IMG/VR virus record: IMGVR_UViG_3300025668_000025
Coordinates: 1 to 35,927 of that record
DNA length: 35,927 nt
From: a virus
Direction: 5' to 3' (one strand)
The position numbers were made by a program, and so were the translations under genes. Below are positions 527 through 4,720 of the stretch, in pieces. Position 1 is the stretch's first letter. Each line of letters starts with the position of its first letter. Below the pieces are notes generated by a model. The model searched no databases, was not told where the DNA came from, and worked only from the letters and a program-made list of their open reading frames with translations.

Positions 527-2611
527 TTACATATAGCTTGATTGTGTTGGAAGCTGAGAGCTATACCCACCCGGAGCGCTCTGAGTCACTGAAGGGGCAT
601 TTGTTACTGGACCATGATAATGTGTGCCACCAGTTATCTGTTGCCCAACACTACCACCACTAACAACAACAGGAGCAGCCACTTGAGCATCGTATTCTCT
701 TTCAAATTTATCCATCGCAGCTTTTTTTAGCCGGGCTGCTTCCAAATCGGTATCTTTTTTCGCAGTTATTGCATCAGTGTTTAACGCAGCTTTTTTTAGC
801 CGAAGCGCTTCTAAATCAGCAGCTTCTTGTGCGGTTATTGCATCAATATTTGCTTGATCGCCTCCAGCTTTTGCATCAAGCGCTTCTTGTCTCGCTTTAA
901 TACCTTCTTCATCGACAAACCGTCTGCCAAGTCGGGTACTAGCTAATGCTGACTCAGCAGCAAGCAAAACCCTATCTGGAAGGGTGTTTACAAAACCTGC
1001 AAACTTAATGAAACCAATTTTCAAATCTGCCATAGTCTTAATCCAAATTTCTTCAATCGTAAGCATAATCCTATCTGGTAGGGATGACATGAATTTGCCA
1101 GCACTGGTAAACGCATTACCTATTGGATCAACTATATTCTCAGCAACAAGATTCTGAACTTTAGTATAAAACGTTTCTGCTAAATTTGAAACAGAATTAA
1201 AAGCATCTATAACCATTTTGACTACGCTAAAGTAACCATCTTCTGGCTCTGAAGAAAATAGATTTGTAAAAATCTTTACTACTGTGTCTTTACCAGCAAC
1301 TAACGTGGTCTTAGCATTCGTGAATAAATCAGATAATACTTTTCTTATGCTGAAGTAACCTTCCTCTGGCTTCTCAGCGAATAAGTTGGTAAAGAACTTT
1401 GATACCGACTCTTTACCAGCAATTAACGTGGTCTTAGCAGACGTAAATAAATCGTTTAATACTTTTGCTATGCTGAAATAACCTTCGTCTGGTGTCAAAG
1501 AGAATAGACTAGAGAAAAACTTCGACACGGACTCTTTACCAGCAATTAACGTGGTCTTAGCAGACGTAAATAAATCACTCAATACCTTTGCTATACTGAA
1601 GTAACCATCTTCTGGCGTTGAAGAAAACAAGTTAGTGAAGAACTTTGACACGTTTGAAGTAGTAGTTTCGACTGCTTTTTTAGAAGTATCCCACACATCA
1701 GTTAATAGTTTTACGATGCTGAAGTAGCCCTCTTCTGGTTTTGGGTTGAACAAATTCTTGAAAAATTTAGCTACCATTTCGCCTGAAACTTTTGTTCCAA
1801 AAAGAGTTTTTGCTAAGTCATCTAAACCTAAACTCTCAAAAAGATCACCCAGCACATCTGAGAACCATATACCAACTTTTTTCATTGATGCAATAGCTGT
1901 ATCAATCGCTATTCCAGGCTGGTCGATCATTTCCAATACAAAAATTCCAACATCATCCATGAAGTCACTAAGTGGTTTTAGAAGTTCTTCTATTTGTTCC
2001 TTTTTTATAAAACCAAAAGTAAAGAACTCTATCACTTGCCCTATTGAACCAAGAAAACCATCATAAATTCTACCAAATAATGTGTCCGCATCGCTTTCCA
2101 TAAATGAGGAAATAGCGCCGCTTATCGATGCAATAATACCTGCAACAATAGCAATAGGTCCAAATTTAGAGGCAAACTTAGCAAATATTTTAAGTAGTGC
2201 TTTTGGGCTGAATAAGAGTTTAAATGAGCTAAGAAGTCCACCACCTATACTTTTTACAATTCCGCTTAAACTTAAAGCGCCTAGAGAACCGAAAAGACTA
2301 GCAAGAATACCACCTTTCTTTTTAGGAACGTCAACTTCTTTCTCTTTTTCTTCACCTGATTGTTTTCCCAGCGAAGCAAGAAGTTCTGGTCTAGCATTAT
2401 TGGCTAATAATGCTTCACGACGACTACGCTTCATATTTTCTAGAAAAGTCTCGGTAAAGAATTTTAAACTGTTATTAATATTACCTAGTGCGTTGACAGT
2501 CATGTTAAGAGAGTCGATAGCAACTCTAAGAGAGTTAGCGCCCGTATCACGAGTCTGCATACCCTCTTCTCGCATCGTCTTCATTACGTCATTTAATGTT
2601 GCTTCAGCCAT
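527..2611 (-). CDS. Repeat-containing tail protein, candidate tape measure (gp29-equivalent)
   Basis: 694 residues. No direct T4 homologue is recognised, so the role is inferred. Residues 1-95 are polar and helical, with a charged K/E stretch near 86-99. Residues 100-170 are Gly-rich and hydrophobic, with a strongly apolar segment at 151-170, as is common in tape-measure proteins. Residues 281-485 hold five tandem 41-residue units around the motif P-E-[ED]-G-Y-F-S. Near the C-terminus two 23-residue Ala/Lys/Asp-rich units with core RLKKAA suggest a coiled coil. The C-terminus is Gly/Ser/Thr-rich and includes THYHG. The gene ends the leftward operon after gp54 and the gp26-like chaperone genes, and no other gp29-like gene is visible. 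The start is ATG at 2611, with only a weak ribosome site. A baseplate or hub structural protein is the main alternative. Confidence 0.6.
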   Translation of the reverse strand: MAEATLNDVMKTMREEGMQTRDTGANSLRVAIDSLNMTVNALGNINNSLKFFTETFLENMKRSRREALLANNARPELLASLGKQSGEEKEKEVDVPKKKGGILASLFGSLGALSLSGIVKSIGGGLLSSFKLLFSPKALLKIFAKFASKFGPIAIVAGIIASISGAISSFMESDADTLFGRIYDGFLGSIGQVIEFFTFGFIKKEQIEELLKPLSDFMDDVGIFVLEMIDQPGIAIDTAIASMKKVGIWFSDVLGDLFESLGLDDLAKTLFGTKVSGEMVAKFFKNLFNPKPEEGYFSIVKLLTDVWDTSKKAVETTTSNVSKFFTNLFSSTPEDGYFSIAKVLSDLFTSAKTTLIAGKESVSKFFSSLFSLTPDEGYFSIAKVLNDLFTSAKTTLIAGKESVSKFFTNLFAEKPEEGYFSIRKVLSDLFTNAKTTLVAGKDTVVKIFTNLFSSEPEDGYFSVVKMVIDAFNSVSNLAETFYTKVQNLVAENIVDPIGNAFTSAGKFMSSLPDRIMLTIEEIWIKTMADLKIGFIKFAGFVNTLPDRVLLAAESALASTRLGRRFVDEEGIKARQEALDAKAGGDQANIDAITAQEAADLEALRLKKAALNTDAITAKKDTDLEAARLKKAAMDKFEREYDAQVAAPVVVSGGSVGQQITGGTHYHGPVTNAPSVTQSAPGGYSSQLPTQSSYM
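1157..1771 (-). repeat. Five tandem 123-bp (41-aa) units in the tape-measure candidate
   Basis: The GYFS-encoding segment recurs with GAAGTA-type complements at 1721, 1598, 1475, 1352 and 1229, exactly 123 bases apart each time. Units 2-4 are closest: a segment of over 40 bases starting at 1407 recurs at 1530 almost unchanged. The outer units are more diverged. The absence of any indel keeps both frame and unit length. Confidence 0.93.
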
Positions 2612-2628
2612 TTTCTTCTATTTTCCTA

Positions 2629-2656
2629 TTGACTTTTTCTCCAAACATGGTATAAT
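2629..2656 (+). promoter_or_regulatory. Sigma70-type promoter with extended -10, antisense to the leftward operon
   Basis: TTGACT at 2629-2634, a 16-base spacer, then TATAAT at 2651-2656, preceded by TG one base upstream (2648-2649) to give an extended -10. It lies in the 75-base gap between two leftward genes but points rightward, toward the 3' end of the EF-hand gene. A short inverted repeat, TAGCG-TTAT-CGCTA at 2656-2669, would form the 5' end of such a transcript. No plausible rightward gene follows. Confidence 0.5.
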
Positions 2657-2686
2657 AGCGTTATCGCTAATGATGTTTAGAGTAAG

Positions 2687-3073
2687 CTATTTCTTAACAG
2701 GTGTTGATGGTTTACCTGATGGTTTACTACCCTTCTTATCACTGTAAGCATTAGCACCAAAGTAAGCAGCAACAAGTGCAGAGATTGCTACAAAGTATGT
2801 TGGTGCAATGTTACCAATAATCACTGCTGCTTTGTCTACACCAAATAACGAAGTGAAGAAGATACTAAACGGATACAGAAGCATTCCAAACAAAGCAAAC
2901 CAAGTCATTTGCCTCATCGCATCTCTACGAGCATCAGCGTCTTCTAACTCTTTACGCTTGAACTCAAGGTACATATCCATCTCTTCTTGTGAGACATGAC
3001 CATCACCATTTGCATCAGCACCAGGCAAAGCCGCTGCATCAATGGTGACGGTGTTAGTTTCTTCTTCAGACAC
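2687..3073 (-). CDS. Small membrane protein with one EF-hand loop and two transmembrane segments
   Basis: 128 residues from a GTG start at 3073, preceded by AAGGA about nine bases upstream. The segment DANGDGHVSQEE near residues 20-31 is a complete 12-residue EF-hand loop with acidic or amide ligands at positions 1, 3, 5 and 12 and Gly at 6, so it could bind calcium. A charged helix follows, then two hydrophobic segments at about residues 55-78 and 83-108, and a Lys/Pro-rich basic tail. This small size with two membrane spans would suit a holin or a membrane-anchored lysis or entry regulator, but no family was recognised and the operon is a tail-assembly one. The function is therefore open. 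It lies between the gp51-like gene and the tape-measure candidate. Confidence 0.75.
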   Translation of the reverse strand: MSEEETNTVTIDAAALPGADANGDGHVSQEEMDMYLEFKRKELEDADARRDAMRQMTWFALFGMLLYPFSIFFTSLFGVDKAAVIIGNIAPTYFVAISALVAAYFGANAYSDKKGSKPSGKPSTPVKK

Positions 3074-3079
3074 TTGACG

Positions 3080-3250
3080 TTATCCTTGTTGTTTTGCATT
3101 TTGTTCTTCAATATGATCAATAAGCATTTCAACATATAAGTCACGTTCGAATGGTATCAAATTTTCAATTTCGGTTATAGAATATTTATGATGTTGGACT
3201 AAGGAAAAGATGACCTTATAATAATTAGAGATATTATTATGGATCATCAT
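3080..3250 (-). CDS. Small chaperone-like protein overlapping the gp26-like gene (T-like or gp51-like)
   Basis: 56 codons. The ATG at 3250 shares its A with the TAA stop of the gp26-like gene (TAATG), and the stop is at 3080-3082. The protein reads MMIHNNISNY at its start and carries a core IENLIPFERDLYVEML at about residues 29-43, then an acidic helix. A short P-[FW]-E-R-[DE]-[IL]-Y-V core is what I associate with small proteins following gp26-type genes in T4-like phages and with second tail-assembly chaperones; this is recalled pattern, not a search result. There is no separate ribosome site, so translation is probably by reinitiation at TAATG, by a -1 frameshift from upstream, or both. 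It is followed by the EF-hand gene and the tape-measure candidate. Confidence 0.75.
   Translation of the reverse strand: MMIHNNISNYYKVIFSLVQHHKYSITEIENLIPFERDLYVEMLIDHIEEQNAKQQG
3218..3240 (-). other. AT-only hairpin downstream of the slippery site
   Basis: On the minus strand ATAATAAT (3240-3233) pairs with ATTATTAT (3225-3218) around a 7-base loop. It lies 15 bases past the slippery heptamer, further than usual for a frameshift-stimulating structure, and all pairs are A-U, so its contribution is doubtful. Confidence 0.35.
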
Positions 3251-3945
3251 TAAGTAAAAAAACTTTGCATCCCTTCGAGCGTTTTCGTTACTTCTGTTCC
3301 ATCTTCTCTAGTGTAAGATACGTCGTGGGATAATTTAGGCATCAAGTTGAAATATTCTTCAACATTTCTCATGTCTTTAGAACTGAATGAATTGATAAAC
3401 TCATCTTGTTCTTTTTTCGTGTGATCCTTCAAAAGAATAACATCGTCATCTACTAAAATCTGATCAATACATTCAATAAGAATACTATTCATCACCTGAT
3501 CTTCTGACTTTTTCTCAAGTTTTTTCACTGTAGCATAATCTGGGTCTTTCATTATCAGAGAGATACTATCGTTTATTTGAATAATGTTGTTTCTTTCGGG
3601 CATTGTTATTTTAATATCATCTAGATTAATACTAATGTCATATTCGATGTTGTCTTCATCATCAGTAATTTTTAGTTCGATAATATTGTTTACAGACTTT
3701 GCCCTCAAATTTAAAAACAAATATTCAATATCATATGGAGCTAGAGTTTTAACGTTAATATCACTGATAATGCAATTTGTCAAAATTTGCTCTATCGCAT
3801 TTTGAATATCTTTTTCTTCTTTGCCTTGTGATGCCATTAGAAGAATTTTTTCTTCTTTGACGGTAAATGGCCGATACTTGATATTCTCTTTTGTAGATGG
3901 TAATTCAAGCATGAATGTAGGGGTATCAATTTTAGGTAATGCCAT
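3250..3945 (-). CDS. gp26: gp26-like T4 baseplate-family protein (candidate tail-assembly chaperone)
   Basis: 231 residues, close to the roughly 208 of T4 gp26. The N-terminus MALPKIDTPTFMLELPST followed by KYRPFTVKEEKILLMA is the conserved opening I associate with the T4_baseplate family (gp26) in cyanophage-like genomes. gp26 acts in baseplate hub assembly. The middle is rich in Asp, Ile and Asn, with a predicted binding-type alpha/beta make-up and no membrane segment. The start is ATG at 3945, with GGAG about 11 bases upstream. The last codons read AGT TTT TTT ACT TAA, which includes a perfect -1 slippery heptamer, and the stop overlaps the next start. Gene order ahead of the tape-measure candidate suggests a role like lambda gpG. 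Family membership is fairly sure; the chaperone role is inference. Confidence 0.75.
   Translation of the reverse strand: MALPKIDTPTFMLELPSTKENIKYRPFTVKEEKILLMASQGKEEKDIQNAIEQILTNCIISDINVKTLAPYDIEYLFLNLRAKSVNNIIELKITDDEDNIEYDISINLDDIKITMPERNNIIQINDSISLIMKDPDYATVKKLEKKSEDQVMNSILIECIDQILVDDDVILLKDHTKKEQDEFINSFSSKDMRNVEEYFNLMPKLSHDVSYTREDGTEVTKTLEGMQSFFT
3256..3262 (-). other. Candidate programmed -1 frameshift site T TTT TTT
   Basis: Seven A residues at 3256-3262 read on the minus strand as T TTT TTT in the phase X-XXY-YYZ relative to the gp26-like frame: AGT TTT TTT ACT TAA. After a -1 slip the next codons are TAC TTA ATG ATG, which is the frame of the 56-codon gene. The fusion would have 230 residues of the gp26-like protein, two linking residues (Tyr-Leu) and 56 downstream residues, about 288 in all. 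Confidence 0.6.
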
Positions 3946-3961
3946 AGTTTAAATCACTCCG

Positions 3962-4720
3962 TTAAAGTACTCCGAGTCCTCTTCCTAGAGTTCGGATTGT
4001 TGTTCCTTGATTAATCAAATCTTGTATATTTCGAGGTCTGTTAATTGTATTTATTACGCCAGCAATAGATGCTGCTTGTGCAATTCGAGTGAATAATCCT
4101 ACTGGTGTTCTAGGCTTATTAACGTCAGAACTGTTTGCTGATGATCTATCAATCGACATATCATCATATGTAAACTCAATAGGAATCTGAATCAACGTAT
4201 CGTTTTGTTCCCATCCCATCGATACAGCACCAATCTGTGTTGGATATGCTTCATATAACGTATATACAACTTTTTCGGAACTATCGTAATCGTATCCAAT
4301 AATTTCTATCGTACAAGCATAGTCTTCTTTATATCCAATCTCTCTATAACCTCTACCGTCAAAAACTTCACCACCATCTTGTACGATGTAGTTTAACCAT
4401 CGCTGAAAGAAGCCCATTATCAGATAGTTCGAATCACCAAAGAAACTTGTTGTAAATGTATCATTCGACCGTGAGATGGGCATCTTGTTGACTTGCCCGT
4501 AAGCAATAGGCTTGTAATCAAATGTGTTTATGGTCTTTCCTGGAAGACTTGTGGTGTTGCAGAAGAAAGTCAACTGTTCCATTGTAGGAAAGGAATCACC
4601 ATCACCAGCAAATATTTTAGAAGGTGGTGTAATTCGTACAATGAACTTATTTGCAAGCGCAAGACCGCCAAATTTAGAGCTTGATATTTGCGCTCTGAAA
4701 TCTGCTACATTAAATGCCAT
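3962..4720 (-). CDS. gp54: Baseplate tail-tube initiator gp54
   Basis: 252 residues; T4 gp54 has 320 and its relative, the tube protein gp19, has 163. In T4, gp54 joins gp48 on top of the baseplate hub and starts polymerisation of the gp19 tube. The tube-type core includes NKFIVRITPPSK near the N-terminus, a segment FFCNTTSLPGKTIN typical of the tube-protein fold, and FTYDDMSID near residue 190. The C-terminus ends in LGRGLGVL, resembling the RILGVL ending of T4 gp54, which favours gp54 over gp19. The start is ATG at 4720 with a strong AGAGGAAG site. It follows the gp2-like gene with a gap of two bases. A second gp19-like tube protein is the alternative. Confidence 0.8.
   Translation of the reverse strand: MAFNVADFRAQISSSKFGGLALANKFIVRITPPSKIFAGDGDSFPTMEQLTFFCNTTSLPGKTINTFDYKPIAYGQVNKMPISRSNDTFTTSFFGDSNYLIMGFFQRWLNYIVQDGGEVFDGRGYREIGYKEDYACTIEIIGYDYDSSEKVVYTLYEAYPTQIGAVSMGWEQNDTLIQIPIEFTYDDMSIDRSSANSSDVNKPRTPVGLFTRIAQAASIAGVINTINRPRNIQDLINQGTTIRTLGRGLGVL

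Follow-up and report, generated by a model that had tools for sequence, protein, structure and literature searches.

A predicted programmed -1 frameshift joining gp26 to a gp51 domain in T4-like phages

In the window, a stretch of 35,927 nucleotides of DNA from a marine phage (IMG/VR record IMGVR_UViG_3300025668_000025) that was analysed at its full length, a gp26-like gene and the short gp51 reading frame behind it are predicted, with a probability of roughly 0.93, to make up a tail assembly chaperone gene that is expressed via programmed -1 ribosomal frameshifting. A frameshift of the lambda G/GT kind had been proposed here in the first-pass annotation, and the proposal now draws support from a slip site kept in 263 of 265 loci, from constraint that acts on nucleotides, and from stimulator-like elements on either side of the slip. 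The -1 product aligns colinearly with the C-terminal part of T4-type gp51, and gp26 and the gp26-51 fusion are very probably the counterparts of lambda G and GT, respectively. Slippage itself, the rate of slippage and the chaperone function in the phage of the window are things that we infer. Most ribosomes would terminate at the TAA and yield gp26 of 231 aa, and a minority, delayed by a Shine-Dalgarno (SD)-like sequence behind them and a stem-loop ahead, would move back one base at T TTT TTT and read on into a gp26-gp51 fusion of 288 residues. If the two products behave like lambda G and GT, the tape measure protein would be bound by the plentiful short form, and tail tube subunits would be recruited by the T domain of the scarce fusion.

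Table 1. Coordinates of the features of the gp26/gp51 locus in the window.
Feature	Position	Strand	Evidence or remark
Tail tube-like protein gene	3962..4720	-	PF23849 1e-10, phrog_45 5.7e-34; upstream of gp26, presumed second client
gp26-like gene, 231 aa, predicted short (G-like) chaperone form	3250..3945	-	PF12322 1.8e-51, phrog_150 1.8e-57, AF2 model
SD-like GAAGGGA, candidate stimulator	3270..3276	-	7 nt ahead of the heptamer
Slippery heptamer T TTT TTT	3256..3262	-	in X XXY YYZ phase; a single sense codon separates it from the stop
Extension in the -1 frame, 58 codons plus stop	3080..3256	-	T-like (gp51) domain within the predicted fusion
56-codon ORF, gp51 'baseplate hub assembly catalyst'	3080..3250	-	phrog_634 1.3e-24; starts from the ATG within TAATG
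Predicted stem-loop, 7 + 8 bp, candidate stimulator	3209..3248	-	begins 7 nt past the heptamer
128-aa ORF	3073-2687	-	between gp51 and the tape measure gene
Tape measure protein gene	527..2611	-	phrog_58 1.8e-13; presumed chaperone client

The gp26/gp51 locus and its slip site

Read along the minus strand, the tail tube-like gene is followed by gp26, the 56-codon ORF, the 128-aa ORF and the tape measure gene, which places the gp26/gp51 pair between the tail tube and tape measure genes, as in lambda G/GT-type loci, and bears out the earlier statement that the pair precedes the tape measure gene with one small gene between. The small downstream protein of the first-pass annotation is indeed present as an open reading frame, and its description can be amended, as its phrog_634 match identifies it as gp51; profile searches gave a weak match to the C-terminal end of the phrog_150 profile as well. 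Both parts that characterise the T4-like gp26/gp51 chaperone family, a PF12322/phrog_150 short form and a phrog_634 T domain, are found in the window, and the T4-type arrangement, a separate gp26 accompanied by a long gp51 with a gp26-like part of its own, is absent from it, gp51 here being the T domain alone. The 128-aa ORF gave a sub-threshold EF-hand-like match and a weak phrog_27150 match and has, on inspection by eye, two hydrophobic stretches. Inspection of the tape measure protein (694 aa) likewise showed several similar stretches of the form KFFxxLFxxxPEDGYFSI.

The minus strand of gp26 ends in AGT (3264-3262), TTT (3261-3259), TTT (3258-3256), ACT (3255-3253) and the stop TAA (3252-3250), with which the ATG of the 56-codon gene (3250-3248) overlaps by one base. 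The position and phase of T TTT TTT were confirmed on this strand, as was the stop-free -1 frame into the 56-codon gene: an in-phase slippery heptamer stands near the end of the short frame, the -1 frame is open into the second domain, and the predicted fusion, join(3945..3256, 3256..3080), comes to 230 + 58 = 288 residues. Seven-T runs as such are nothing unusual, numbering 7 on the two strands of the window, compared with 17.8 expected from shuffles. The two strands together hold 30 ORFs that start with ATG and span 100 codons or more, counted whether or not they are real genes. Three of them, gp26 included, carry an in-phase slippery heptamer near their end; for the remaining two, a stop closes the -1 frame after 4 and 5 codons, compared with 58 open codons here.

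The AF2 model of gp26 from the window (pLDDT 87.3) found as its best VIA row the HK97 tail assembly chaperone 2ob9 (Z 7.7, rmsd 3.3, 82 residues), followed by 3fgx (Z 7.2) and 3klu (YqbN, Z 7.0), both of which we take to be tail assembly chaperones, and then by rows at 4.7 and 3.8; all of these rows lie below a Z of 8, a range in which VIA scores can reflect a common arrangement. Foldseek comparison of the model with the PDB gave no match at E <= 0.001, the HK97 chaperone coming fourth with an E of 2.0, and the gp26 profile gave none among PDB sequences up to E 1. Among predicted viral structures, Foldseek returned 52 matches at E <= 0.001, of which the named ones are mostly baseplate hub proteins; these matches add members to the family and no function.

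Conservation and nucleotide-level constraint

Relatives were compared in a conservation table of 287 rows, comprising the window, 283 loci and 3 reverse strands. The loci were the best 80 of at least 595, the best 80 of at least 511, the best 80 of 99 and all 10 from each of two further searches, together with 23 phage records picked for diversity, not randomly, from pools of matching records (575 to 602 for gp26, 570 for gp51 and 1339 for T4 gp51). Before counting, we removed two rows with no gp26 match in the scanned strand (L010, which holds 17 residues of gp26, and L011, the window again), two in which gp26 runs off the contig (L253, L267), two in which the slip is present and the contig ends ahead of the T domain (L046, L137), one T4-type gp51 with a broken frame (L283) and, as rows with no separate T domain after the first part, 12 of T4-type fused gp51 and 3 of T4-type gp26. 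In L283, an IMG/VR record, the disrupted gp51 frame lies at about 2501-3246 and may reflect mutation or sequence error. Three of the rows (L001, L002, L004) are near copies of the window; cluster counts correct for such redundancy, the 264 loci with the heptamer (263 plus Synechococcus phage S-SCSM1) falling into 100 clusters at 70% identity.

Of the 265 loci in which the gp26 end is complete and the T domain separate, 263 have T TTT TTN in slip phase and a T domain open in the -1 frame, the pattern that the first-pass annotation had named as support should relatives show it. The closest IMG/VR relatives (L001-L009, gp26 identity 54-100%) all have AGT TTT TTT and an open -1 frame, and retain both even where the ATG of gp51 has shifted. 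Of the 23 named phage records, 17, from very different hosts, likewise have T TTT TTN and an open -1 frame: phiM12, AG-345-L05, Cr30, Syn1, DLP_6, P-SSM2, S-ShM2, MED4-213, Melnitz, S-SZBM1, Moby, Grn1, Aeh1, RHph_I1_18 (where the heptamer is T TTT TTA), S-SCSM2R, RHph_N34 and Atu_ph04. The other six consist of four T4-type phages (T4, Aeromonas phage 31, RB43 and KARL-1) and two exceptions, S-SCSM1 (L107), in which the slip is intact, the T domain lies in +1 and the -1 frame is closed, and Campylobacter phage CP21 (L109), which has no slip and a T domain in +1. Loss of the run or its phase with both parts kept, named beforehand as evidence against a frameshift, was seen in these two loci only.

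By eye, 11 extra bases after the gp26 stop put the S-SCSM1 T domain in +1 (1715-1760), and these are either a real change or a sequence error. The gp26-like gene of CP21 ends TAT AGG TGA and is followed by an unannotated T domain in +1 (about 1430-2160), making this phage a candidate for a +1 frameshift.

The constraint on the slip site acts at the nucleotide level. The codon ahead of the slip ends in T in all 100 clusters, across residues that vary (S 41, D 31, N 19, A 4, T 3, G 2); every one of the 100 uses TTT for the first Phe, and the codon after it is TTC in 59, TTT in 36, TTA in 4 and TTG in 1. From the codon usage of the genes themselves, the expected means are 57% for a T-ending codon and 65% for TTT at the first Phe, with joint log10 probabilities of -27.7 and -22.1, respectively, which treat the clusters as independent although strictly they are not. 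Phe-Phe is invariant at the protein level (13 sequences), and this invariance explains neither the preceding T nor the choice of the first Phe codon.

These data also bear on the competitor raised in the first-pass annotation, reinitiation at TAATG. On this view, or with translational coupling at the overlap, gp51 would be produced as a small protein in its own right, and the T run would be incidental. The window has TAATGATG, which fits such a route: there is ATG ATG at the overlap, and a separate gp51 could therefore be made by reinitiation here too. With the boundary of the T core set by a rule of thumb (22 residues ahead of a P-x-E-R-like motif), the 98 classified clusters comprise 34 with an ATG ahead of the core and no SD-like motif, 3 with both, 10 with GTG or TTG alone, and 51 with no ATG, GTG or TTG anywhere from the slip to the core in the -1 frame. 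The ATG-bearing clusters speak for reinitiation, as does S-SCSM1, which has an ATG before its T domain though the -1 route is closed; because 51 of 98 clusters lack a start before the core, however, it is not the mechanism that the relatives share. Furthermore, the stretch from slip to ATG is open in the same 263 of 265 loci, in T4-type gp51 the domain is fused to a gp26-like part, and coupling leaves the third-position constraint unexplained. As the explanation of the locus, we consider the competitor very unlikely.

A further rival to programmed ribosomal frameshifting is a slip by RNA polymerase within the T run, which would produce the fusion from mixed mRNAs. T runs are indeed known to make polymerases slip, but in 64 of 100 clusters the heptamer holds just six T, with C, A or G as its last base, a run shorter than those normally credited with polymerase slippage, and the X XXY YYZ phase, the SD-like motif and the downstream folding suit ribosomes, so that a transcriptional origin seems scarcely credible. 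Chance, that is, a functionless heptamer in a T-rich gene end, might be argued from the invariant Phe-Phe and the six further seven-T runs in the window, but is excluded in effect by the -1 T domain in 263 of 265 loci and the NNT codon, for six different residues, before TTT in 100 of 100 clusters, and it is this conservation in relatives that rules chance out for the slip site of the window.

Candidate stimulators around the heptamer

The SD-like motif, the heptamer and the folding downstream form a textbook frameshift cassette, in which the two flanking elements are candidate stimulators. A cassette of the E. coli dnaX type has an SD-like sequence about 10 nt upstream and a stem-loop 5-9 nt downstream of the heptamer; the window has the three elements in the same order and at similar spacings (7 nt and 7 nt), and differs from E. 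coli dnaX in having T TTT TTT in place of A AAA AAG and a predicted stem that is less stable.

Across the relatives, 69 of 100 clusters have an SD-like tetramer whose end lies 7-14 nt ahead of the heptamer, in most cases 8-11 nt, compared with 5.8% at other in-frame places in the same genes. Conserved Glu-Gly codons account for part of this signal; GAG is over-used at the site (39:27 versus 393:1010, p 2.7e-7).

The stem-loop of the window has a predicted energy of -11.3 kcal/mol (z -3.45), and 1 of 200 shuffles folds equally well. When 60-nt stretches were folded across the clusters, folding peaked directly past the slip, with a mean z of -1.67 at +4 and -1.46 at +8, compared with -0.43, -0.44 and 0.01 at -180, -120 and -60 and with -0.12 and -0.20 at +60 and +120. 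Values of z below -1.5 were reached by 51% of clusters at +4, versus 11-21% at the five control places, and in a set of 103 redundant loci the 70 nt past the slip had a mean z of -2.4, with 80 loci below -1. A long-range stem seen in 17 relatives, 12 of which were chosen by motif from the clusters and 5 added by eye, pairs in 98% of cells, with 3 pairs changed on both sides and a covariation score matched in 0 of 500 shuffles; as motif picking and relatedness both favour covariation, we treat this result as supportive only. In the window's own clade (6 distinct sequences), covariation of the stem was not significant, 119 of 500 shuffles scoring as high.

Comparison with T4 gp51 and with frameshifted chaperones

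Judged from sequence, T4-type gp51 reads as a gp26 paralogue with a T domain attached. The protein from T4 (249 aa) matches PF12322 over residues 1-201 (3.9e-52) and phrog_634 over residues 147-246 (1.2e-23), and the T domain is in frame with the gp26-like part in 12 of 12 T4-type gp51 rows. In profile comparisons, gp26 aligns with residues 6-200 of T4-type gp51 (E 1.8e-9) and the -1 product with residues 199-246 (E 1.7e-8), the Phe-Phe of the latter falling on residues 199-200 with one single-residue gap further in; the predicted fusion is therefore colinear with T4-type gp51 at the junction. The gp26 genes of T4, Aeromonas phage 31 and KARL-1 are without a slip site and lie on the opposite strand to gp51. 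In RB43 (L111, 2501-3794), unlike T4, a fused gp51 is followed on the same strand by what is, by eye, a likely gp26.

A tree of the G domain was built from 41 rows, of which 32 were frameshift rows hand-picked from 264. The four T4-type gp51 N-parts cluster together in it (99/98) and the four T4-type gp26 rows form no single group; the T4-type rows are placed close to Grn1 and Aeh1, both of the frameshift type, on weak support, basal support is weak and the branches are long. Duplication of a frameshift-type gene within the Straboviridae would be compatible with this tree. We lean, with some reserve, towards the view that outside the T4-type branch (in cyanophages, T4-like phages of alpha- and gammaproteobacteria, vibriophage Grn1 and Aeh1) 'gp51' is no gene in its own right and occurs solely as the C-terminal domain of a chaperone made by frameshifting, that the frameshift is the older state, and that T4 is a derived exception, which gained its permanently fused gp51 from a duplicate and so moved the setting of the ratio from ribosomes to two genes. 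The two states would offer a natural comparison of two ways of setting a protein ratio, frameshifting and gene duplication.

Xu, Hendrix and Duda are said to have described, in 2004, the lambda G/GT tail assembly chaperones and their -1 frameshift. The locus resembles lambda G/GT in its short protein, in the -1 shift near the gene end, in the C-terminal T domain and in the tape measure gene nearby; it differs in protein family (gp26/gp51; PF12322, phrog_634), in the slip, which is T TTT TTN here and G GGA AAG in lambda, in its T domain of 53-70 residues and, in the window, in the one extra gene ahead of the tape measure gene. T4 gp26 and gp51 belong to the same families as the proteins of the locus, T4 gp51 being colinear with the predicted fusion, and T4 differs in having the two forms come from two genes and a gp26 that lacks the slip site.

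According to the relevant passage of a review, the G-T frameshift is widely conserved in long-tailed phages, T4 excepted (PMC5009743). The PRFect paper (PMC10885494) cites Vladimirov et al. 2022, in the passage concerned, for T4-like phages with one short and one fused copy, and a passage of PMC12846349 cites the same work for poly-T -1 signals in the TAC-N genes of T4-like phages. Given these citations, both the mechanism and the identification in T4 were already known, the frameshift form in T4-like phages is at least mentioned in the earlier literature, and the first-pass remark that frameshifting had not been described for gp26-type genes was too strong. A detailed account of the gp26 frameshift in cyanophages was not found in the portion of the literature searched. 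Without claiming priority, we add the locus itself, the range of relatives over which the signal is conserved and how strongly this conservation acts on nucleotides, the stimulator-like elements, the lack of start codons before the T core in about half of the clusters, and the alignment, residue by residue, of the -1 product with T4-type gp51. As described in part of PMC12846349, the chaperone genes of Vandenendeviridae and Andersonviridae also use a -1 frameshift, and share with the present locus a conserved poly-T motif (GTTTTT in their case) at the end of the short frame, an open -1 frame and a C-terminal part annotated as a separate gene; these are other phage families, and the likeness to gp26/gp51 is one of described features.

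The comparison indicates that T4-like phages outside the T4-type branch use the G-T frameshift, with a strongly conserved signal. A 2010 review lists gp51 as an essential protein whose function is unknown (PMC3004832); as the long form of the tape measure chaperone, it would gain a role that can be tested. Annotation can be corrected at the same time, the T domain having been called a separate gene or a truncated gene or, in Aeh1, missed; a 2010 comparison reports, in the section concerned, gp51 as missing only in Aeh1 (PMC3037559). In Syn1, MED4-213 and Melnitz (L015, L019, L020), gp51 is annotated from an internal Met, and the first part of the T domain is lost. Aeromonas phage Aeh1 (L024) has no annotated gp51, and in its record an unannotated T domain follows gp26 in the -1 frame at 2705-2887, with no start ahead of the core.
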